Shown here one piece after another: positions 1,503-12,067 of a stretch of DNA of 64,000 bases (within the stretch, counting starts at the first letter, position 1; every line of letters starts with the position of its first letter). This DNA is from Paenibacillus mangrovi (lineage in GTDB: Bacteria; Bacillota; Bacilli; Paenibacillales; Paenibacillaceae). A program made the position numbers and the translations under genes. Location: contig NZ_JALIRP010000001.1 of assembly GCF_022898935.1 (NCBI RefSeq), positions 930,001 through 994,000 on the forward strand, read 5' to 3'. The notes beneath the pieces are model-generated. The model was given only the letters and a program-made list of their open reading frames with translations. It searched no databases and had not been told where the DNA came from.

Positions 1503-2852
1503 CTACAATTTTGAAATATAGAATAACTGATTTAACCCGACATCTGCCGCTCTGGGCAGAAGTGAGCACTGCCCCTCCAGGTCTACCGTTACAAATTTAT
1601 CGTTAGCCATGGATTTAAAGGCAGACCGGCCTTCACCAAAGTCCAAGTGCAGAAAAGTCTCCCAGGGACCGATGTGATCACGATTTGCGATCAGCTCGCC
1701 CTCACCCCCGAGTTCTGCAGTGACATATTTCTGATTGGCTAGAGACTGAAGGGCAATTTTGTCGCCATCCAGATAAATCAACCTGAAATTCTCCCAGGGA
1801 CCAATAGAATACCGGTTCGCACACAACGGAAGAACCCCTTGATTTTCTGCGGCGACCCATAACTGGTTGACAAGCGCCTGCAGGGCGACGACATCATCTG
1901 AAAACAGGCTGTGACTCGATCCCTTGAAAGGATCCGGCAATCTGAAGGCAAGTCCCGGGTTTGACCTCACCTCGTTCCTGATTGACTCAACCGTTTCTCC
2001 ATTATCAAAATAATTGTAGCTCCATGGTGTTTTGCTTAACGCATACTGGCCCAGTTCAATCGATTCGAGCAGATAACCGGAAACCATTTGATAGAGCGGC
2101 GATCCCGGATCCGGGTTGCTCTGAAAAAAATAATGAAAGACTGAGTTTGAATAATGGAAAAAGCAAAGGGGCAGCCCATTGGTAAGGTACACTCCATCCT
2201 GAATAACAAGGTTACGCTCATGGATGTTCCAAAAGGCCATATTATAACCAGGGTGCTGAAAAGAATACACATCAAAGAAACCGGGTGCAAGATCCAACCA
2301 CTTTTGATTGGCAAAATGGATGTGATCAAAAAATCCTAGATCATAGCTTCGTTCCCCCCACCACTGTACAAATCGATGGGCTTCATCCGAACGACGAATG
2401 GCCGAGAATCCGGCATTATAGACACCGAAGAAGAGCGTGTCAAATTTTAAAAACTCACTGTTGGTGAAATGAGGCGTAAGTACAATTGGCTTCTCATCCA
2501 GCGCCCGTATCAGGTCATCAAAGCGGTTCATGACCTGCACGTCAGAATCCAGATGGATAAAGTATTTTTCTGAAGGAAAACGATTCAACAAGAAAGAGTA
2601 AAAAAGAGTGACGACCGCGCAAATAGCTTCGAGGACATTATATTTGAGCATAAGCTGCGGAAAATGGGGAATGCCAAGATCCTTCGCTAAAATGACTTCA
2701 TCAAACCATGGCACATTCATCGCTTCCTGAATCATATCCTTCTCTATAAGACAGACCACAACTTTAGCGTCCGGCATATGCCGCTTGACTGAGCGGGCCA
2801 TAACCTTTGCCCTGTGGAGATAGTTGGCTGCCGTTACTGTCGAGATAATCAT
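1503..2852 (-). CDS. Glycosyltransferase fused to fascin-like beta-trefoil
   Basis: A 449-aa two-part protein. Residues 1 to about 300 look like a GT-A nucleotide-sugar transferase: it starts with MIISTVTAANYLHRAKVMA and has a DxD-type metal/sugar-nucleotide motif in FIHLDSDVQVM. Residues about 330-449 form three trefoil repeats related to the neighbouring small protein (CANRYSIGPWENF, IANRDHIGPWETF, then a degenerate third copy). The start at 2852 has AAGGAAGG about 8 nt upstream. No secretion signal is seen, so the enzyme should be cytoplasmic. The trefoil probably docks the enzyme to its glycan or protein substrate (inference). It sits in an operon with a paralogous transferase upstream. 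Confidence 0.8.
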   Translation of the reverse strand: MIISTVTAANYLHRAKVMARSVKRHMPDAKVVVCLIEKDMIQEAMNVPWFDEVILAKDLGIPHFPQLMLKYNVLEAICAVVTLFYSFLLNRFPSEKYFIHLDSDVQVMNRFDDLIRALDEKPIVLTPHFTNSEFLKFDTLFFGVYNAGFSAIRRSDEAHRFVQWWGERSYDLGFFDHIHFANQKWLDLAPGFFDVYSFQHPGYNMAFWNIHERNLVIQDGVYLTNGLPLCFFHYSNSVFHYFFQSNPDPGSPLYQMVSGYLLESIELGQYALSKTPWSYNYFDNGETVESIRNEVRSNPGLAFRLPDPFKGSSHSLFSDDVVALQALVNQLWVAAENQGVLPLCANRYSIGPWENFRLIYLDGDKIALQSLANQKYVTAELGGEGELIANRDHIGPWETFLHLDFGEGRSAFKSMANDKFVTVDLEGQCSLLPRAADVGLNQLFYISKL

Positions 2853-2881
2853 TCTGCTACCTTCCTTTCTAATCCGACCAA

Positions 2882-3724
2882 TCAACCGGACTTCATTTGC
2901 TGCAAGGCATTCGAGTACTTTGCCCACAGTTGATGAATGGACGCTTCATGTGGGAAGAGAGCCCCCATCATATTCGTCAAACTGGAGTTATCGTTATTGA
3001 AATTGAAGCAGCGAAGACGTTCTGATCCTGCAGTATATCTCTTTCTATTCAAGTATATAAATCTAGACTGTTCGTGAATATTCCAGAACCCGACATTGTA
3101 ACCGGGATGCCGAAGGATGCCCGTCTGGAAATAACCTGGGACCAAATTCAAACATTTCTGATCGTGCAGACTGCCACCAAATACATGCTGACCATCGAAC
3201 TCCCGGATTGCCCGAATCCACCAGTTTAACAGACGGCCAAGCTCCTGCGTTCTTGTCATGCCAATCATACCCATATGGAAAGTGCCATCCGTCAGCACTT
3301 GAATCTCCCGTGAGCAATCTGTTCGGGAAAAGGGCTCCACAAAGTGCGGAGTCAGCACAATCGTGGATGATGACATCATCGACCTGAATTCTTTCAAAGG
3401 ACTGACCACCAGCATCCGCGCATCTAGATAGATAAATTCATTCTCTCCGCTATAAACATCCGCCAAAAAACGGAATAGATATCCCCTGAGCACAGACACA
3501 TGCTGAAACCCCTGAAAGCGGGACATATAGGCATCAAAATCGGGGATCCCCAAATCTCTTGCCAATACGAAATGCTTGACCCATGGATATCTTTCAGATT
3601 CAGGTAGAGAATTCTCTATCAGACAAACAATTACTGAAGCTTTGGGATGATGCTCTTTAACCGATTCCGCCATAAGCAGAGCTTCCGCGAACTCATTCCA
3701 TGTCGCTATGGTTGTAACAAGCAT
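2882..3724 (-). CDS. Glycosyltransferase-like protein, paralogue of next gene
   Basis: A 280-aa protein collinear with the N-terminal domain of the downstream fused transferase: similar opening (MLVTTIATWNEFAEALL), the RDLGIP motif, and NVGFWNIHE matching NMAFWNIHE in the paralogue. It lacks the trefoil. The expected DxD is replaced by DAR in FIYLDARMLVV, so metal-dependent catalysis may be lost or altered. The start at 3724 has AAAGGGAG about 8 nt upstream. It is the first gene of a three-gene minus-strand operon whose promoter should lie in the 220-nt gap shared with the divergent DegT gene. Confidence 0.75.
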   Translation of the reverse strand: MLVTTIATWNEFAEALLMAESVKEHHPKASVIVCLIENSLPESERYPWVKHFVLARDLGIPDFDAYMSRFQGFQHVSVLRGYLFRFLADVYSGENEFIYLDARMLVVSPLKEFRSMMSSSTIVLTPHFVEPFSRTDCSREIQVLTDGTFHMGMIGMTRTQELGRLLNWWIRAIREFDGQHVFGGSLHDQKCLNLVPGYFQTGILRHPGYNVGFWNIHEQSRFIYLNRKRYTAGSERLRCFNFNNDNSSLTNMMGALFPHEASIHQLWAKYSNALQQMKSG

Positions 3725-3943
3725 GCGTTTCTCTCCCTTTATTTGCAGTATCATGCTTTCTTGTATATGCAATATATGCCAACCTCTACAGGATGAAATA
3801 AGTATTTTACCTAATCTCTAAATTTCTATGGTATTCACACCTGAAAAATAGACTTTCCTTCTGGTATAAATAACGGTGTCCCAATATTCAACTTCAGAAT
3901 CTGATACATATACGGATCATTTTATTGGAGGCGAGTGACACCA

Positions 3944-5104
3944 ATGTCTATTGAGGATAAGCCGTTTCTTACGTTCGGTGCTCCTGATATTCGGAAACAG
4001 GAAATGCTGGAAGTGATGCGATGTCTTGAATCTGGCTGGATCGGAACTGGCAGCAAGGTGGCAAGTTTTGTGGATGATTTTAAAAAATATAAGGGTGTGG
4101 ATCATGCCGCTGCTTTGAATTCCTGTACAGCCGCGCTCCACCTTTCCCTTCTCACTGCCGGGATTGGGCCGGGAGATGAAGTCATTACAACGCCTATGAC
4201 CTTTTGTGCTACGATCAACACGATCATTCACTGCGGAGCTACACCCGTCCTGGCCGATATCGATCCGGGTACCATGAATATTGATCCGGAGCGGATCAAA
4301 GAGAAAATAACAGAACGTACGAAAGCGATCCTGCCGGTACATTTTGCGGGAAGACCTTGTGAGATGGATGAAATAATAGCCATTTCACGGAAGCATGGAC
4401 TAAAAGTAATCGAGGACTGCGCACACGCGGTAGAGAGCGAATATCATGGACAGAAGGCAGGAACCATTGGTGACTTTGGCTGTTTTAGCTTTTATGTCAC
4501 CAAAAATATCACCACCGGAGAAGGCGGAATGGTTCTCGCTAGAAGCGAAGAAGATATCAGGAAAATTCAAATGCTGGGACTGCATGGGTTGTCCAAGGAT
4601 GCGTGGAAACGCTTCTCGGATTCAGGCTTCCAGCATTACTCTGTTCTGGCACCAGGATATAAATATAATATGATAGACCTTCAAGCGGCTTTGGGCATCC
4701 ATCAACTAGCTCGAGTGGAAGAAAGCTGGTTGAAACGCCAGCACATCTGGAACAGATATAATCAGGAATTGGGTGACCTCCCGGTTATCCTTCCAGCTTC
4801 AACAACGCCCAATACCCGTCATGCGTATCATCTGTATACCCTGCTGATCGATAAAACCTTGTGCGGCCTTGCGCGGAATGAATTTCTGGAGCAAATGAAT
4901 GCTCGTGGAATCGGCATGGGCGTTCATTACCTAAGTCTGCCCGAACATCCTTTTTATCAAAATGCTTTTGGCTGGAGACCAGTAGATTACCCGCACGCAC
5001 TGCGGATCGGACAACAAACAGTCAGCCTCCCGTTGTCCTCCAAATTGACGGATGAGGATGTTGACCGTGTCGTCGAAACGACACACCAAATCCTTCGCGC
5101 ATAA
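3944..5104 (+). CDS. DegT/DnrJ/EryC1/StrS aminotransferase
   Basis: A PLP-dependent sugar aminotransferase, 386 aa, full length for the family. It should convert a keto group of a nucleotide-activated sugar to an amine. The PLP lysine is K187 in SFYVTKNITTGEGG. Other family marks are ALNSCTAALHLSL near residue 57, TTPMTFCAT, and the EDCAHAVES loop. GGAGG at 3927-3931 is 12 nt before the ATG at 3944 and only 3 nt before a GTG at 3935, so the start is uncertain by three codons. It is divergent from the glycosyltransferase operon, which suggests an amino-sugar in the local glycan. Confidence 0.92.
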   Translation: MSIEDKPFLTFGAPDIRKQEMLEVMRCLESGWIGTGSKVASFVDDFKKYKGVDHAAALNSCTAALHLSLLTAGIGPGDEVITTPMTFCATINTIIHCGATPVLADIDPGTMNIDPERIKEKITERTKAILPVHFAGRPCEMDEIIAISRKHGLKVIEDCAHAVESEYHGQKAGTIGDFGCFSFYVTKNITTGEGGMVLARSEEDIRKIQMLGLHGLSKDAWKRFSDSGFQHYSVLAPGYKYNMIDLQAALGIHQLARVEESWLKRQHIWNRYNQELGDLPVILPASTTPNTRHAYHLYTLLIDKTLCGLARNEFLEQMNARGIGMGVHYLSLPEHPFYQNAFGWRPVDYPHALRIGQQTVSLPLSSKLTDEDVDRVVETTHQILRA

Positions 5105-5174: not shown

Positions 5175-5714
5175 TTACATAAAAAGGCGATTCAACAAAT
5201 TGTCGAAACCCAACTGATGTAGCAGCTCCCGCCAGCGATTCACATGCTCCCATTCGGTTATTTTGGGTTCGTATCCGAGCTTCAAATATATTTTAATAGC
5301 TGATAACCGATGATCTTCCGTCTCCAGGATTGCCCTTGCCCTGTTATCTGCAATCATTTGCTGCATCGCAGCCAAAGACACAGCGAAGCCAAGCCCCATT
5401 CCCCTATAATCGGGATCAGTCGCCACCATATGAAGATAACCGGCGTCATCACCCCAAGTCTCTTGCCAGAATGCCGATGCAGTCGATACTGGAATGCCTT
5501 CAGGCGAAATTACAAATAATACTCGGTTGGGGTGGAAGGAGGGGTCGTCCGTCATCATGGAAAAATCGAAAAATTGCCCAAACGACTGCTGGATGATATT
5601 CTCCCAATCTTTCTCATAGTCCTGTTGATAGTTATGCAGCGTAAAACCCGAAGGAAGCTCAATGTTACCTAAATTCAAAAGATGGCTTCTTTCCATCACC
5701 AAATGCGTACTCAT
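5175..5714 (-). CDS. GNAT-family N-acetyltransferase
   Basis: A 179-aa acetyl-CoA-dependent acetyltransferase. The acetyl-CoA-binding motif A reads VATDPDYRGMGLGFAVSL (residues about 97-114), followed by the usual NxxAxxxYxxLGY-like tail (LSAIKIYLKLGYEP). The start at 5714 has AAAGGTGGGA about 7 nt upstream. It is transcribed alone between the DegT gene and the GT61 pair. Its substrate is unknown; acetylation of an amino-sugar made by DegT is possible from context but not shown. Confidence 0.85.
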   Translation of the reverse strand: MSTHLVMERSHLLNLGNIELPSGFTLHNYQQDYEKDWENIIQQSFGQFFDFSMMTDDPSFHPNRVLFVISPEGIPVSTASAFWQETWGDDAGYLHMVATDPDYRGMGLGFAVSLAAMQQMIADNRARAILETEDHRLSAIKIYLKLGYEPKITEWEHVNRWRELLHQLGFDNLLNRLFM

Positions 5715-5887
5715 CTGAACATCCCACCTTTATTCATTTTTGAACACAGAATACACATGATGAACCTGTCCTGTTCCGGCCAATTGACATGGTCAAACGC
5801 CAATTATACCGAATAGTAGGTGTTTAACTATGCTGCTCCCTTACCCGTGGCATATGATGGGTAAGGAATTGGAGGGAGGTGTTAAAG

Positions 5888-7213
5888 TTGAAGAGACAAC
5901 GCCTGCGAATCCATCCGCATCCTAAAGCTACTTCAATTAAAAAACGTCAATCGCGAAAGAAAATAACCGTTCGGATATACCGAGATTTGATACGGAAACG
6001 ACGAAAAAAAAGAATTTCAAGAAAAAAGAGGCTGCGATATCCAATCAGGAAAAGAAAGCTTAGGCGCACCAATTCCCGCCGTACTAGCAGAAACCACAGG
6101 AACACGCAGACTGTAGAGTTGCATAGTAAACGACCAGAAGGGCTATATAAAACTACATCGGAATGGGCCCAGCATAGCCGTCTTCGTGGAGATGATCCCG
6201 TCTTTATGGAATTCCATACGAACGAGGCCTTCCATTTCACAGCTTCGAAGGGTCTTGAATCCCCTTTGTTTACAGAGAATATCAAACCCTTGCCGTCAGC
6301 CTTTGTTGCAGTGATCCCGGAAGGGCGGGTGCTGGGAGAAGAAGGATCTGTGATTACACCTGATAACCGCCTTTTATGGGATGTATCATTGCAGCTGCTC
6401 CCTGAAGATCAGCATCCCGTATTCAAACCAGAACCTCTGGGGCCTTTAATCGAGACCCAAGGGACATTGGCAGTCCTTAGCTTTTTCAGCAGTGAAACCT
6501 ATTTCCACTGGCTATACGATGTCCTAGCACGTATCCATCTGATTCGCATGAGTGGAATCATAGTGGACAAATATGTCATGAATCGAAATATCCAAGCCCC
6601 ATTCCAGGATGAGACCCTTGCCATGCTTGGCATTCCATCGGATAAGATTCTGTTCACCTATCCCAATATGAATCTGAAGGCAAAGCAACTGGTTGTTACA
6701 TCGATTTCCATGCACTCTTTTCTGGAATACGGCAGTTGGCCTTTTCAATTCATAAGACAGGAATTGTACGAGAAACAGGATTTTAGGCATACAGGCTGTG
6801 ACAGAATTTATATTAGTCGCGCCAAATCTGACAAACGTAAAATTTTGAATGAGGATCAAGTCACAGGTCTGCTGGATAATTACGGATTTACCACAGTAGT
6901 GCTGGAGGATCTGTCGGTTGCACAGCAGATTGAGACCTTTTCCTCCGCTTCAGTAATCGTTGCGCCACACGGTTCAGGGTTAGCTAATCTGGCCTTCTGC
7001 CATCCGGGAACCAAAATTATAGAATTATTCGCACGTGGCTATACGCCGGTATGTTACTGGGAAATGAGTAATTATTTACAGCTGGACTACTATAGCATGG
7101 TGGAAAGTGGATATCTCGAACCCAATCAGCAGCATTTATTCGAACAGAACATCATGCTCCCTCTTGACCGTTTGGAACAGCTGCTTTGCCTGGCTGGCAT
7201 TTCTCGCATATGA
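5888..7213 (+). CDS. GT61 (DUF563)-type glycosyltransferase, polybasic N-terminus
   Basis: A 441-aa protein. Residues about 1-80 are almost all Arg and Lys (for example RKRRKKRISRKKRLRYPIRK) and predict no membrane span. From about residue 100 the chain matches GT61/DUF563 capsule-type transferases: YFHWLYDVLARIHLI, DKYVMNR, RIYISRAKSDKRKILNE and VAPHGSGLANLAF. The TTG at 5888 is preferred because GGGAGGT ends 7 nt before it; a GTG at 5879 overlaps that site. The gene is followed 27 nt later by a paralogue with the same architecture, so the two form an operon. The catalytic half is probably cytoplasmic. The basic tail may bind polyanion or membrane (inference). Confidence 0.85.
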   Translation: MKRQRLRIHPHPKATSIKKRQSRKKITVRIYRDLIRKRRKKRISRKKRLRYPIRKRKLRRTNSRRTSRNHRNTQTVELHSKRPEGLYKTTSEWAQHSRLRGDDPVFMEFHTNEAFHFTASKGLESPLFTENIKPLPSAFVAVIPEGRVLGEEGSVITPDNRLLWDVSLQLLPEDQHPVFKPEPLGPLIETQGTLAVLSFFSSETYFHWLYDVLARIHLIRMSGIIVDKYVMNRNIQAPFQDETLAMLGIPSDKILFTYPNMNLKAKQLVVTSISMHSFLEYGSWPFQFIRQELYEKQDFRHTGCDRIYISRAKSDKRKILNEDQVTGLLDNYGFTTVVLEDLSVAQQIETFSSASVIVAPHGSGLANLAFCHPGTKIIELFARGYTPVCYWEMSNYLQLDYYSMVESGYLEPNQQHLFEQNIMLPLDRLEQLLCLAGISRI

Positions 7214-7240
7214 AGTTATCCAATCAAAGGAGGAAAAGCG

Positions 7241-8746
7241 GTGAACGCCCGATTGAAACGAAAAAGAGCTGCTAATGCAAAAAAAAGAACCCGGCAATCT
7301 CTTGATTCTGGTCTTCGCCTTTTAGCGCTTATCTTACTAACTCAAAGGAAGCTTAGACTGGAACGAAAGAAGCGACAAAAGAGAAAGCGCCTTAGACGGA
7401 GAATAATGCGACTAAAGAGAATACAGCGACGTAGACGGAGAAAGATGAGATTAATAAGGGAAATGAGATTAAGACGAAGAAGAGAAAGGGTTAATCATTC
7501 AGCTCCTCCCGTTCATTCTCATGATGTTCAGCATATAACGGATCATAAGCCGCCGAGCGAAAACAGGAACTCTTCCCATTCATCTTTGCCACATTGGGTA
7601 GGCGAAGAAGCCGACGGAATAATCGCTCCCATTAGCTATGATAACACCCCAGCCTGGATCAGCCAGTCCGCTGAAAAGGGAAGCCTGATTGCACCAGTAT
7701 TCAAAGAGCTTTATCCTGGCTTTACCGATATTTATCCAGAAGCCCGAGATATTAATGGTAATATCCGATTTGATAACACCCAAGTGACCTCGCCCAGCTG
7801 CTTTGTTGCCGTTATTCCATCGGGGAGAATCTGGGGCGTCAACGGATCTGTGATTACACCTGACAATGTTGTGCTTGAAGATGTGTCGATGGAATTCTCC
7901 ATAGGTTTAAACTTTGGGATTCACCCGGCTATCAGCAGATGGGCTCCACATCAGTTATCTTTTACATCGGAAACGGTTGCCTCCCTGGGATTTTCGGACA
8001 GCCAAAATTATTTCCACTGGTTGTATGATGTTTTGGGTAGGCTGCATTTACTTCAGCTTAGCGGTATAAAAGTGGATAAATACGTGATTAACCGGAGAAG
8101 CAGAATCTGGTGGGATATTGATGATCTTAATGGCCCAAGGCCATTTCAGGAAGAATCTTTACGGATGCTGGGCATTGATTCAAAACAAATTATCGAGACT
8201 CATGAGGAATTCAACTTGAAGGCCGGCCAGGTAGTCGTAATGTCACACACCGAGCGGCGTGGTTATCCAAAATGGGCGTCAGAGTTCTTAAGGAAGGTCT
8301 TTTTGTTTGACCGCGGCTTGGACGTCAATGGCCAAGGAAGTGAGTACATTTATATCAGCCGATTGAAAGCGAAACGACGCAGAATCTTAAATGAAACAGA
8401 CGTTATTGATCTGTTGACAGCTCATGGATTCAAAATCTATTCATTAGAAGAAATGAGCATGGACGAGCAAATCCGTCTATTTAACAATGCCAAAGTCGTT
8501 GTTTCGCCCCACGGCGCAGGAATGTCGAATATCACTTTCTGTAAACCAGGGACATCTATTGTTGAAATTTTCACGCCTAACTGGATAAAGGATTGCTACT
8601 ATAGAATCAGCAACCATTGTAATTTGGATTATCATTGTTTGGTAGGTGAAGGCGTAGCCTGGGAAGGGATGAGATGGGATGGTGAGGAGGATCTGATTGT
8701 AGATATGGATCAATTAAAGCAGGTGCTGTCCCAAATTAAAATATAG
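7241..8746 (+). CDS. Second GT61 (DUF563)-type glycosyltransferase, polybasic N-terminus
   Basis: A 501-aa paralogue of the preceding gene. Residues 1 to about 85 are dominated by Arg/Lys (KRIQRRRRRKMRLIREM), then a linker, then the GT61 domain: NYFHWLYDVLGRLHLLQL, DKYVINRRS, YIYISRLKAKRRRILNE and VSPHGAGMSNITF. The GTG at 7241 has AAAGGAGG 7 nt upstream. Compared with its partner it has about 60 extra residues before and within the catalytic domain. Paired GT61 genes usually add successive sugars; which sugars is unknown, but the UDP-xylose operon downstream offers a donor. Confidence 0.85.
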   Translation: MNARLKRKRAANAKKRTRQSLDSGLRLLALILLTQRKLRLERKKRQKRKRLRRRIMRLKRIQRRRRRKMRLIREMRLRRRRERVNHSAPPVHSHDVQHITDHKPPSENRNSSHSSLPHWVGEEADGIIAPISYDNTPAWISQSAEKGSLIAPVFKELYPGFTDIYPEARDINGNIRFDNTQVTSPSCFVAVIPSGRIWGVNGSVITPDNVVLEDVSMEFSIGLNFGIHPAISRWAPHQLSFTSETVASLGFSDSQNYFHWLYDVLGRLHLLQLSGIKVDKYVINRRSRIWWDIDDLNGPRPFQEESLRMLGIDSKQIIETHEEFNLKAGQVVVMSHTERRGYPKWASEFLRKVFLFDRGLDVNGQGSEYIYISRLKAKRRRILNETDVIDLLTAHGFKIYSLEEMSMDEQIRLFNNAKVVVSPHGAGMSNITFCKPGTSIVEIFTPNWIKDCYYRISNHCNLDYHCLVGEGVAWEGMRWDGEEDLIVDMDQLKQVLSQIKI

Positions 8747-8844: not shown

Positions 8845-10215
8845 TCAGGAGGTGCCAAGGCCCTCTACTTGAAATCCGATATGGATTAATTCAGGGCGAG
8901 GAAGTACATTTCTGGTATCCAATATATATGGATTGCTCATTCGTTTGTACATTTCTTTCCAGTCCAACTGGAGATACTGATCCCAGTGAGTCAAGAGTAC
9001 AATTGCGTCGGCATATTGAGCCGTCTCTTCCGGATTCTCGCAATACGTAATCTGCAACTCTGAATTTATTGCCTGGAACATTTCCATCCCTTTTGGATCA
9101 TGGACCTTTACATTAGCCCCCAGCTCGAGGAGCCTCGCGATAATGACCTGAGCCTGGCTTTTTCTAGCATCATCCGTGTTTGGCTTAAACGTAAGCCCCA
9201 GAATCCCTACAGTTTTGCCGTTCAGGGACTTGAGTCGATCTCTGATTTTATCTACGCAATATTTGTGCATAGCGAGATTCGAATCGATCGCTGCTTTGAC
9301 GACCGTGAGCTCTCTGCCGTATTTTTGGCTTGTTGATAGCAGTTCAATGGTGTCCTTGGGAAAGCAGCTGCCCCCCCAACCGCTGGAAACCTGAAGAAAT
9401 TTGCTGCCGATCCGACCATCAAGTCCCATGCCTTTTGCAACTTGTTGCACCTGAGCTCCTAAGGCATCGCACAGCCGAGCAATTTCATTGATATAACTGA
9501 TTTTTACGGATAAAAAGGCATTCGAGGCATACTTGATCATCTCAGCGCTCTTCGAATCTGTCTCAAAATATATAGCCGGCGGTTTGTCTAGTTGGTTAAG
9601 GAATGAAAAAGTCTCACTCCACTGTTTATATTTGTGACGTTCCAGAAGACGGCCATACAGTTCCCGCATCTTGGTTTTTGCTGTATCGCTCTCCGAGCCG
9701 ATGACGATACGGTCTGGAAAGAACACATCTTCCAAGGCGCATCCTTCTCTCAAAAATTCGGGATTGCTGACAACGGAGAAGTGTACTCCTGCCTGCAGTC
9801 CTGATTTCTGCCTTACTCTGCCTGTAACTCTGTCGGCTGTCCCTACAGGTACTGTCGATTTGTTAACAATGACGGTAAACGATTCCGGATTCAGGCGGGA
9901 AGCAATTTGCTCAGCAACCTGAGTCACATAAGTCATATCCACCGTTCCATCAGCTTTGGAAGGTGTGCCCACACAGATAAAAATGATATCTGCATGGTTC
10001 ACGCTGTCATATTTGGTCTCCGCGTGAAGCGTTTTTCCAATCGTCATAGAAATAAGCTGATCCAATTCCGGCTCATAAATGGGACTCTTCCCTGACTGAA
10101 TCAGTTTGATTTTATTCGGATCGATATCAATTACTGTCGTATCATGGCCCAAAAATGCAAAGGCGGCTGCCGTAACAGATCCCACGTACCCAGATCCTAC
10201 GCAAACAACCTTCAT
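8845..10215 (-). CDS. ugd: UDP-glucose 6-dehydrogenase
   Basis: Oxidises UDP-glucose twice with NAD to give UDP-glucuronate. It is 456 aa, normal for the family. The N-terminal Rossmann motif is VGSGYVG; the catalytic cysteine is C284 in GWGGSCFPKDT; the C-terminal domain carries the usual GLTFKPNTDDAR stretch. Two adjacent ATGs exist at 10218 and 10215. The second gives 7-nt spacing from GGAGG and is preferred. The gene overlaps the stop of the upstream epimerase, so translation is coupled. It is the last gene of the operon galU - decarboxylase - ugd. Confidence 0.95.
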   Translation of the reverse strand: MKVVCVGSGYVGSVTAAAFAFLGHDTTVIDIDPNKIKLIQSGKSPIYEPELDQLISMTIGKTLHAETKYDSVNHADIIFICVGTPSKADGTVDMTYVTQVAEQIASRLNPESFTVIVNKSTVPVGTADRVTGRVRQKSGLQAGVHFSVVSNPEFLREGCALEDVFFPDRIVIGSESDTAKTKMRELYGRLLERHKYKQWSETFSFLNQLDKPPAIYFETDSKSAEMIKYASNAFLSVKISYINEIARLCDALGAQVQQVAKGMGLDGRIGSKFLQVSSGWGGSCFPKDTIELLSTSQKYGRELTVVKAAIDSNLAMHKYCVDKIRDRLKSLNGKTVGILGLTFKPNTDDARKSQAQVIIARLLELGANVKVHDPKGMEMFQAINSELQITYCENPEETAQYADAIVLLTHWDQYLQLDWKEMYKRMSNPYILDTRNVLPRPELIHIGFQVEGLGTS

Positions 10216-11180
10216 CATCGATCCTCCTCTCTGTTCGCTGACCGATAGACCTGGATCATTCGTCGCAGACCTTCATCTAAATTAATAACCGGTTCCCAGC
10301 CAAGAAGGTTTTTGGCTTTGTCAATGATTGGACGGCGCTGCTTGGGATCATCAACCGGCAAGGGGTGGAACGTAATCCGGCAGTTCCCTCCTGTAATTTG
10401 ATTGACACGCTCGGCTAATTCCAAAATAGTGTATTCGGTAGGATTGCCTATATTAATAATCTCACCGCTAGCCGACTCTTTCTCCATCATTAATTTCAGG
10501 CCCCGAATTGTATCGTCTGCATAACAAAAAGAACGGGTTTGCATGCCATTCCCATATACAGTTAGATCCTTCCCTGTAAGTGCCTGTTCAACAAAGTTGG
10601 AGATGACCCTGCCATCGTCGCTTCTCAGACCTGCTGAATAGGTGTTGAAGATACGGGCTACTCTTACATCCACTTGGAACTTATGGAAATACTCGTAGCA
10701 GAACACTTCACCGAGCCGTTTGGCCTCATCATAGCAGGCACGTGGCCCCCAGGTGTTAACATTCCCTCTATAATGCTCCGGTTGGGGATGTACGTCGGGA
10801 TCTCCGTATGCTTCACTTGTGCTTGTAAAGAGCATTTTGGCCCCTGTCCGTCTTGCCAATTCAAGCATATGCATGGTGCCTATGGTGTTGATGGCTATAG
10901 TTTCGAGAGGAGCGGATTGATAATATTTAGGTGAAGCAGGCGACGCCAAATGATAAATCTCCCTCACATCGGATAGAGAATTTAGAAGCAACCATTCTTC
11001 TGAGGAAGCATTCTCCTGGATAAAAACAAAGTTATCATTCTTCAACAGGCCCTCGATGTTGGACATTTTGCCTGTGGATAAATTATCTACACCAATAACA
11101 CGATGTCCTTCCGAGATCAGATCTTTCGTTAGATGACTACCCAGAAATCCCGCTGCCCCAGTTATAAGGATGGTTTTCAC
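10215..11180 (-). CDS. UDP-glucuronate decarboxylase (UDP-xylose synthase)-like SDR
   Basis: A 321-aa extended short-chain dehydrogenase. NAD-binding is GAAGFLGSHL. The signature HLASPASPKYYQSAP, the TSTSEAYGDP serine region and the CYDEAKR form of the YxxxK active site are those of UDP-glucuronate decarboxylases (UXS), which convert UDP-glucuronate to UDP-xylose. One usual motif is altered: NTYSAG replaces NTYGPR. The start is GTG at 11180, overlapping the galU stop. With galU and ugd it forms a complete route from glucose-1-phosphate to UDP-xylose. A 4-epimerase or UDP-arabinose role is less likely from the motifs. Confidence 0.85.
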   Translation of the reverse strand: MKTILITGAAGFLGSHLTKDLISEGHRVIGVDNLSTGKMSNIEGLLKNDNFVFIQENASSEEWLLLNSLSDVREIYHLASPASPKYYQSAPLETIAINTIGTMHMLELARRTGAKMLFTSTSEAYGDPDVHPQPEHYRGNVNTWGPRACYDEAKRLGEVFCYEYFHKFQVDVRVARIFNTYSAGLRSDDGRVISNFVEQALTGKDLTVYGNGMQTRSFCYADDTIRGLKLMMEKESASGEIINIGNPTEYTILELAERVNQITGGNCRITFHPLPVDDPKQRRPIIDKAKNLLGWEPVINLDEGLRRMIQVYRSANREEDR

Positions 11181-12067
11181 GCTTCTTCACCTTCTTTCTC
11201 TGGTTTAAGGATACCTTGCAAGTATCCATGCATTTCTTTTTTTAGGAGTTCATGTCGCTGAGCGTACTCCACATTAGCCTTAATCAGCCCCATTAGATTG
11301 CCTATGTCGTAGGAGATGCCTTCACATTCCAAGGCATAGCATGTGGTCTTCTCAGATAAGTTCCGCAAAGCATCCGTAAGCTGTATTTCTTCCCCAAGCT
11401 TCGGTGGAGGAAGAATCGCCAGCTCATCCATAATTTGTGGCTCAAGGATATATCTGCCCATAATCGCCAGATTGGAAGGCGGATTGCCCTTGGGCTTTTC
11501 TACGAGTGACTTAATCCGGTACAGCCTGTCGTTCACTTTCTCTCCATCTAGAATTCCGTACTTTTCAATATCAGGGGGAGCTACCGGTTGAACGCCGATG
11601 ACAGTCGCAGGCTGCTGATGGTAACTCTCTATCAATTGCTGCAGACAAGGCTTTTGACTGTGAAATATCATGTCTCCGAGCATAACAGCGAAGGTCTCTT
11701 GGCCTACAGCTTTGCGGGCAGTCCAAACGGCATGGCCGAGTCCAAGTGGTTTGTTTTGTCTGATGTATTGAAAATTTGCCATATTCGAGATTTCGTCCAT
11801 CCATTGGAGTACCCGAATGTCACCTTTTTTCTTCAACACTTGCTCGATCTGGGGCTGATGGTCAAAATAGTCTTCAATGGCACGTTTATCTCGACCAGTT
11901 ATGATGATGACATCTTCAATGCCGGATGCAACAGCTTCTTCGACGATGTAATGAATTGCAGGTTTATTAATAATCGGCAGAAGTTCTTTGGGAACTGCCT
12001 TTGTGATAGGCAAAAAGCGTGTCCCTAGGCCGGCAGCAGGGATTACCGCTTTCCGAACCGTCTTCAT
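11177..12067 (-). CDS. galU: UTP-glucose-1-phosphate uridylyltransferase
   Basis: Makes UDP-glucose from UTP and glucose-1-phosphate. It is 296 aa, standard length. The N-terminal nucleotide-binding signature AAGLGTRFLPITKAVPKE and the later VEKPKG motif are intact. AAAGGAGG stands 7 nt before the ATG at 12067. It is first in the three-gene UDP-sugar operon, whose promoter should lie in 12068-12160. B. subtilis calls this enzyme GtaB. Confidence 0.95.
   Translation of the reverse strand: MKTVRKAVIPAAGLGTRFLPITKAVPKELLPIINKPAIHYIVEEAVASGIEDVIIITGRDKRAIEDYFDHQPQIEQVLKKKGDIRVLQWMDEISNMANFQYIRQNKPLGLGHAVWTARKAVGQETFAVMLGDMIFHSQKPCLQQLIESYHQQPATVIGVQPVAPPDIEKYGILDGEKVNDRLYRIKSLVEKPKGNPPSNLAIMGRYILEPQIMDELAILPPPKLGEEIQLTDALRNLSEKTTCYALECEGISYDIGNLMGLIKANVEYAQRHELLKKEMHGYLQGILKPEKEGEEA

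Follow-up and report, generated by a model that had tools for sequence, protein, structure and literature searches.

A 64,000-nucleotide stretch of the Paenibacillus mangrovi genome (the window; contig NZ_JALIRP010000001.1, positions 930,001 to 994,000) carries two tandem genes for glycosyltransferase family 61 (GT61) enzymes, GT61-A and GT61-B, whose predicted products both open with a long leader rich in lysine and arginine (K+R). Our comparisons indicate that the charge of these leaders is kept while their sequence drifts almost freely, and that similar basic tails recur on transferases and putative transferases of several other families and are absent from the precursor enzymes read beside them. 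We give an even chance to the idea that the leaders form a composition-coded electrostatic tag that brings transferases to a polyanionic surface which they share, probably that of the forming spore. The pair had been singled out in an earlier reading of the DNA (the original prediction), which described tandem GT61 genes with leaders of about 80 residues; its coordinates proved right, and the leaders are arranged as follows.

5888-7213, + strand: GT61-A glycosyltransferase, 441 amino acids from the TTG at 5888 (PF04577, E value 2.5e-30)
5871-5881, + strand: GT61-A ribosome-binding site, GGAGGGAGGTG
5888-6103, + strand: GT61-A basic leader, about 72 residues
7241-8746, + strand: GT61-B glycosyltransferase, 501 amino acids from the GTG start at 7241 (PF04577, E value 1.7e-29); the predicted model resembles POMGNT2
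7226-7233, + strand: GT61-B ribosome-binding site, AAAGGAGG
7241-7489, + strand: GT61-B basic leader, about 83 residues, 49% K+R and 5% aspartate plus glutamate; AlphaFold2 helix at residues 2-86

Both genes have strong ribosome-binding sites ahead of their basic leaders, and an alternative GTG start of GT61-A, at 5879, falls within the ribosome-binding site GGAGGGAGGTG itself. The matches to PF04577 begin far downstream of the leaders, at residue 205 in GT61-A and residue 257 in GT61-B. Between the leader and the domain of GT61-A there is no start codon with a Shine-Dalgarno match of at least 4 bases, and the sole further Shine-Dalgarno matches in GT61-B (4-5 bases) sit within the leader. In addition, a syntenic genome, G147, conserves both the opening codons of GT61-A and its upstream region. 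The start sites and this conservation make it very probable that the leaders are translated as part of the enzymes; translation from a point past the basic region, the outcome that the original prediction named as fatal to it, is not supported by starts and ribosome-binding sites that precede the leaders.

Beyond the leaders, the two proteins look conventional. Their Glyco_transf_61 scores of 106 and 103.3 bits, against a curated cut-off of 27, place both in the family, and a protein search of the P. mangrovi genome returned exactly these two GT61 genes. An AlphaFold2 model of GT61-B built from a 40-row alignment (mean predicted local distance difference test score, pLDDT, 86.3; predicted template modelling score 0.74) was compared with solved structures using Foldseek, and all 16 matches in the PDB with E values of at most 0.001 were to POMGNT2 (8.5e-11 to 7.2e-9), with template modelling scores of just 0.34-0.42 when the leader is included. 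A sequence profile searched against the PDB likewise gave POMGNT2 and EOGT, both GT61 members, as the solved relatives, and an alignment of 15 tailed GT61 homologues displays conserved domain columns. Judged by Pfam, by the PDB profile and, for GT61-B, by predicted fold, the enzymes are ordinary GT61 members and predicted transferases.

The leaders themselves are unusual in their charge. Their best 60 residues contain 52-53% K+R, so that the description "Arg/Lys-only" was too strong for a leader core that is about half lysine and arginine. When 60-residue windows were scored across 864 kb of the 5.94-Mb genome (C1:1-800000 plus the window; 697 of 738 gene models, short models without a ribosome-binding site being excluded), the two leaders ranked first and second in net basic charge, with net charge fractions of 0.50 and 0.48 against a mean of 0.08 (standard deviation 0.05). 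The third-ranked protein reached 0.32, and its neighbours resemble an integrative element by inspection. No tandem repeat array was detected in 5888-8746 at a score of 50. As a separate observation, the GT61-B leader contains a leucine-rich interruption, SLDSGLRLLALILLTQ, at window positions 7299-7345, which would read as a basic stretch in one of the frames of the other strand, as though a short piece had undergone inversion.

This composition invites comparison with CotG, described in PMC9765600 as a highly charged, disordered outer-coat protein whose CotG-like relatives have their architecture and mostly their charge in common, and not their sequence. Like those Bacillus coat proteins, as that paper presents them, the leaders combine high positive with low negative content and keep a composition without homology. 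One could therefore suppose that the tails are themselves coat-building material and that the enzymes double as coat proteins. We regard this as very unlikely: unlike CotG, which consists of tandem repeats and is phosphorylated by CotH, the basic parts lack repeats and are appendages of conserved transferases, and a search for CotH, the kinase on which CotG depends (PF08757), found none in the P. mangrovi genome (99.69% complete), the same search being positive in a B. subtilis control. With neither repeats nor CotH found, a strict CotG-type mechanism is unlikely, and the anchoring of that type proposed originally is not supported in this sense.

We then compared the leaders with those of G147, in which gene order matches the window from the GT8-like genes through GalU (see below). 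The GT61-B leaders are only 47% identical in amino acids and 64% in nucleotides, as against 87% and 88% for the domain, and codon positions 1 and 2 are as diverged as position 3 (0.64 and 0.63). Of the aligned bases, 36% are different between the two leaders, and the alignment has 14 gap columns, with the frame still open. Observed leader K+R nevertheless stands at 0.49 and 0.55, far above the 0.33 or 0.30 predicted by a neutral simulation in which divergence was set to the 4-fold value for linker plus domain (0.24), and none of 2,000 neutral runs from either side reached the observed values. Because K+R is this far above the simulation while leader identity is low, the charge is kept with the sequence nearly free, in line with the original prediction that composition is held although the leaders differ in sequence. 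That the leaders are a functionless product of neutral low-complexity expansion, or an annotation artefact, is scarcely credible on these figures. Fast drift and gaps are what such an expansion would give, as is a frame break in the GT61-A leader of G147; against it stand the excess of K+R, a frame that stays open across 14 gap columns, the scarcity of acidic residues in purine-rich DNA that would encode glutamate too, and the recurrence of tails on other transferase families. The G147 frame break itself (L080, about 7550-7760), where the leader opens with the same residues as in the window and then shifts frame in a run of A, may be either a sequencing error or real.

A homologue is present, with the P. 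mangrovi genome counted, in 24 of 100 genomes of the genus, 75 of 394 of the family and 91 of 392 sampled from the order. A first scan of genome contigs using a single-protein query gave no match; a second yielded 399 relatives, the best 80 of which led to 77 loci, and 140 unique GT61 open reading frames (ORFs) from loci L028-L176 and the window were scored. An N-terminal extension with K+R of at least 0.40 in 40 residues was present in 17 of these, and the remaining 123 scored at most 0.28, although two of the latter, in G103 and G147, were reclassed as tailed once the open frame had been read back beyond the start picked automatically (the G103 gene has no good start codon ahead of its tail, and the G147 gene contains the frame break). 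On a quick tree of 137 rows, 3 of the 140 being too short, with support given by the Shimodaira-Hasegawa-like approximate likelihood ratio test (SH-aLRT) only, the tail trait changes 7 times by parsimony, with at least 4 changes forced by well-supported branches.

The leader is missing from 118 of the 137 rows, so that, in line with the original prediction, most of the GT61 enzymes read lack it, and the window pair differs from most bacterial members in this respect. Conservation of the leader among homologues, which had been proposed as a check, fails for most of the rows, while in 19 rows a leader recurs with unrelated sequence. All 19 belong to the same order as the window: 2 to P. mangrovi, 6 to other genera of its family, 9 to other families of the order and 2 to named Paenibacillaceae records. 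Untailed rows include all 22 from Cyanobacteriota, 12 from Bacillaceae, 8 from Heliobacteriaceae, and 1 each from Anoxybacillaceae and Verrucomicrobiota. The term "paralogues", applied originally to GT61-A and GT61-B, holds in the broad sense only; the tree groups GT61-B with G406 rather than with GT61-A, and we reject a recent tandem duplication of the two on that basis.

The tails are not confined to GT61. Across 22 loci in 19 genomes they occur on 43 of 91 transferase-class gene models (a few borderline, with net charge 0.35-0.40, and two internal), on none of 65 in a precursor class comprising dehydrogenases, GalU, epimerases, an aminotransferase and similar enzymes, and on 1 of 214 others, this last a 694-residue ORF in a guanine- and cytosine-rich locus that is probably an antisense ORF. 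The difference between transferase and precursor classes (p 4.5e-13) overstates the case, since the loci were chosen largely for holding or flanking tails and the class queries included tailed proteins; what stands firm in this comparison is that no precursor enzyme bears a tail. Four tailed transferase-class genes stand in a single cluster in G255.

The end that carries the tail depends on the family. It is N-terminal in 15 of 15 GT61 proteins, C-terminal in 8 of 9 DUF707 proteins and C-terminal in 7 of 7 members of a family that we call GTx, to which Pfam assigns no family, one member weakly matching Galactosyl_T. C-terminal tails occur on DUF707, GTx, GT8-like, GT4 and GT2 proteins, with N-terminal tails in a few; DUF707 and GTx are putative transferases only, and the GT8-like label rests on a Pfam match just below the cut-off. 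Elsewhere in the order, too, the tail is an add-on to GTx and DUF707 proteins: among the unique ORFs in the matches listed in order-wide searches with GTx and DUF707 cores, it is present on 4 of 9 stand-alone DUF707 proteins and on 7 of 7 DUF707-GTx fusions. The basic leader, noticed originally on the GT61 pair, is found on several other transferase families as well, mostly at the opposite end. Separately, an internal basic stretch is present in GT2-type enzymes at L112:13962-15149, L130:13114-14301 and L084:6078-7313, of which only the L112 protein was run against Pfam.

A polybasic tail could instead bind anionic lipids and so retain soluble transferases on the membrane, the site at which lipid-linked glycans are assembled. 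AlphaFold2 predicts a single long helix for residues 2-86 of GT61-B, with pLDDT values of 69-94 when averaged over ten-residue blocks, and by eye hydrophobic residues recur at regular intervals in the GT61-B leader, both in the window and in G147, as this explanation would lead one to expect. Helix prediction is, however, unreliable for low-complexity basic sequence; other tails contain prolines and few hydrophobic residues, so that a helix is no shared feature, and most homologous transferases do without one. Membrane anchoring is for these reasons quite unlikely.

The genes around the pair suggest another polyanion, namely the product of the cluster.

1503-3772, - strand: two putative GT8-like genes, so assigned from their similarity to L094_1; both untailed and syntenic in G147, one carrying DUF7910 at its C terminus
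3935-5104, + strand: DegT/DnrJ aminotransferase, untailed, syntenic in G147
5175-5714, - strand: GNAT acetyltransferase, divergent from GT61-A
8845-12067, - strand: nucleotide-sugar dehydrogenase (resembling uridine diphosphate (UDP)-glucose 6-dehydrogenase), nicotinamide adenine dinucleotide (NAD)-dependent epimerase/dehydratase and GalU, all untailed; precursor supply

The window's two GT8-like genes have no Pfam transferase match of their own. DUF7910 domains occur at 1072-2927, next to the GT61 pair, a GT8-like protein having one at its C terminus and a small protein containing one too.

With dehydrogenase, epimerase and GalU genes next to the pair, the tails might bind an acidic polysaccharide made by the same clusters through a UDP-glucuronate route and raise processivity, independently of sporulation. 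GalU-like genes are indeed commoner beside tailed than untailed GT61 genes (9/14 versus 8/45, p 0.002; 8/13 versus 8/45, p 0.004, when one of two same-genome loci is dropped), and the lack of tails on precursor enzymes in the 22 loci would suit this explanation as well. Yet the UDP-sugar dehydrogenase itself is not significantly associated with tailed genes (7/14 versus 14/45, p 0.22), and we found none in the stretches read of six tailed loci (L085, L101, L112, L140, L151 and L158), though a flanking stretch in P. cremeus, L271, has a dehydrogenase-like gene, recognised by its first residues. We consider a tether to the product unlikely, and the strongest of the alternatives to a tag for the forming spore. 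Collagen-like proteins stand beside 2 of 14 tailed loci and none of 45 untailed ones (p 0.05), and a search of the P. mangrovi genome with collagen families gave one match, below the cut-off. The collagen-like proteins with GPP repeats near tailed transferases are at L085:2734-3474 and L112:2775-3539.

A link to sporulation is suggested by promoter-like elements in the window.

5817-5858, + strand: promoter-like element TAGGTG plus GCATATGAT upstream of the GT61 pair, conserved in G147, with a putative function
3775-3813, - strand: second TAGGT...GCATA element, 46 nucleotides ahead of the start of the neighbouring GT8-like gene

The GCATATGAT box lies at 5850-5858, 29 nucleotides upstream of the GTG at 5879, and TAGGTG is 33 bases upstream of the box. 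TAGGTG (TRGGY) resembles a GerE site, and the box, generalised as GCATANNNT, resembles a mother-cell sporulation -10 element. This box precedes 14 of 31 tailed operons and 31 of 452 operons sampled from the P. mangrovi genome (Fisher p 4e-8), a comparison that covered eight patterns in all, with homology among some of the tailed operons and a background drawn from one genome; in 200 shuffles of the 31 upstream regions it occurred 1.7 times on average and 6 at most. A stricter pattern, GCATAN[GA]AT, devised after the sites had been seen, matches 9 of the 31, none on the reverse strand, and 0.3 in shuffles. In P. mangrovi the box also precedes, among others, the operon of dpaA and that of a ylbJ-like gene, whose match falls short of the curated cut-off. 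The window has 3 TAGGY/GCATA pairs (at least 3 in 3 of 100 shuffles), and of 10 genome-wide matches to the pair, 3 lie no more than 50 nucleotides from a start codon that has a ribosome-binding site; the GT8-like and GT61-A genes of the window account for two. Judged from these sequences, sporulation control of the GT61 pair is plausible. At 5715-5887, where the original prediction proposed seeking sporulation promoters, there is a promoter-like GCATANNNT-type box, at 5850-5858, and no two-box sigma-K or sigma-E consensus; its idea of a role in sporulation gains indirectly from the box enrichment and, weakly, from the collagen-like neighbours.

Given these results, a tag acting on the forming spore could work as follows. 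The basic tail would bind one shared polyanion, which may be an acidic layer of the coat or crust or a nascent acidic glycan; transfer, and not the making of precursors, would thereby be held at the polyanionic surface. More tentatively, this tethering might take place in the mother cell during sporulation, and the tailed enzymes might build a spore-surface glycan and perhaps remain in the coat. An electrostatic tether fits better than a specific docking motif because the tag follows the transfer step, its position varies by family and it is mainly its composition that is kept; an acidic coat or crust layer is favoured as the polyanion because of the promoter box and the collagen-like neighbours. 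Rather less assured, at somewhat under an even chance, is the wider proposal that spore-surface transferases of the Paenibacillaceae repeatedly gained arginine/lysine tails, located at the end that the fold favours, as an address label to one mother-cell polyanionic surface or assembly, with precursor enzymes left soluble. The sps genes of B. subtilis, according to PMC7439481 required for surface glycosylation and crust assembly, are a comparable gene group for surface sugars; in the present case we infer the link to sporulation.

Several results weigh against a spore-directed tag. The tree has 15 rows from other members of the genus, none of them tailed, and a whole-frame recount gives two untailed loci, L109 and L124 (the latter cyanobacterial), a net charge of 0.30-0.32 upstream of the assigned start, which makes the gap between tailed and untailed proteins less clean. 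Many transferases in tailed clusters are untailed, the window's two GT8-like genes included, just 3 of 42 stand-alone GTx ORFs, counted as above, are tailed, a search near clusters for acidic partner proteins gave none that was convincing, and the non-significant dehydrogenase association described above belongs here too. With divergence assumed to be 0.1 changes per site, 24% of neutral runs from G147 reached the K+R of the window leader, and no run from the other side reached the observed value; the 24% concerns low divergence, and the real leaders are far more diverged. As regards promoters, GCATANNNT occurs on the reverse strand in 7 of 31 tailed regions (background 27/452) and in 15 of 159 other operons of tailed loci. 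Two-box patterns for sigma-K and for sigma-E match 0 of 31 tailed operons each, with 20 and 14 matches among the 452 background operons; a consensus spacing for sigma-K is published in PMC517825. The third TAGGY/GCATA pair of the window lies within the GNAT gene (5633-5671), presumably by chance, and genome-wide the pair is not enriched, with 10 matches against 46 for a reversed-pattern control; TAGG and GCATA elements, sought across the genome, likewise showed no excess over control.

In the open-licence literature we found no description of polybasic tails on bacterial transferases, or of tails shared across transferase families. If a spore-directed tag is the correct reading, it would be one route by which soluble transferases may reach the surface of the forming spore, for which the literature examined offered no explanation. 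Because only charge is kept, such a tag would be invisible to sequence search; it would also be a simple marker for more surface-glycan clusters and a portable tag candidate for directing enzymes to spores.

Finally, small proteins of about 95-123 residues recur near tailed clusters (L267:11451-12440, L272:397-1347, L276:5280-5967 and L279:14759-15438). Five such cluster proteins, from L267, L276 and L279, matched no Pfam family above the cut-off, and one small neighbour protein of other clusters had no match in the P. mangrovi genome in a search run without a positive control. At L276:6253-6510 there is, in addition, an 86-residue protein whose first half is basic like the tails and which has no enzyme domain by eye.

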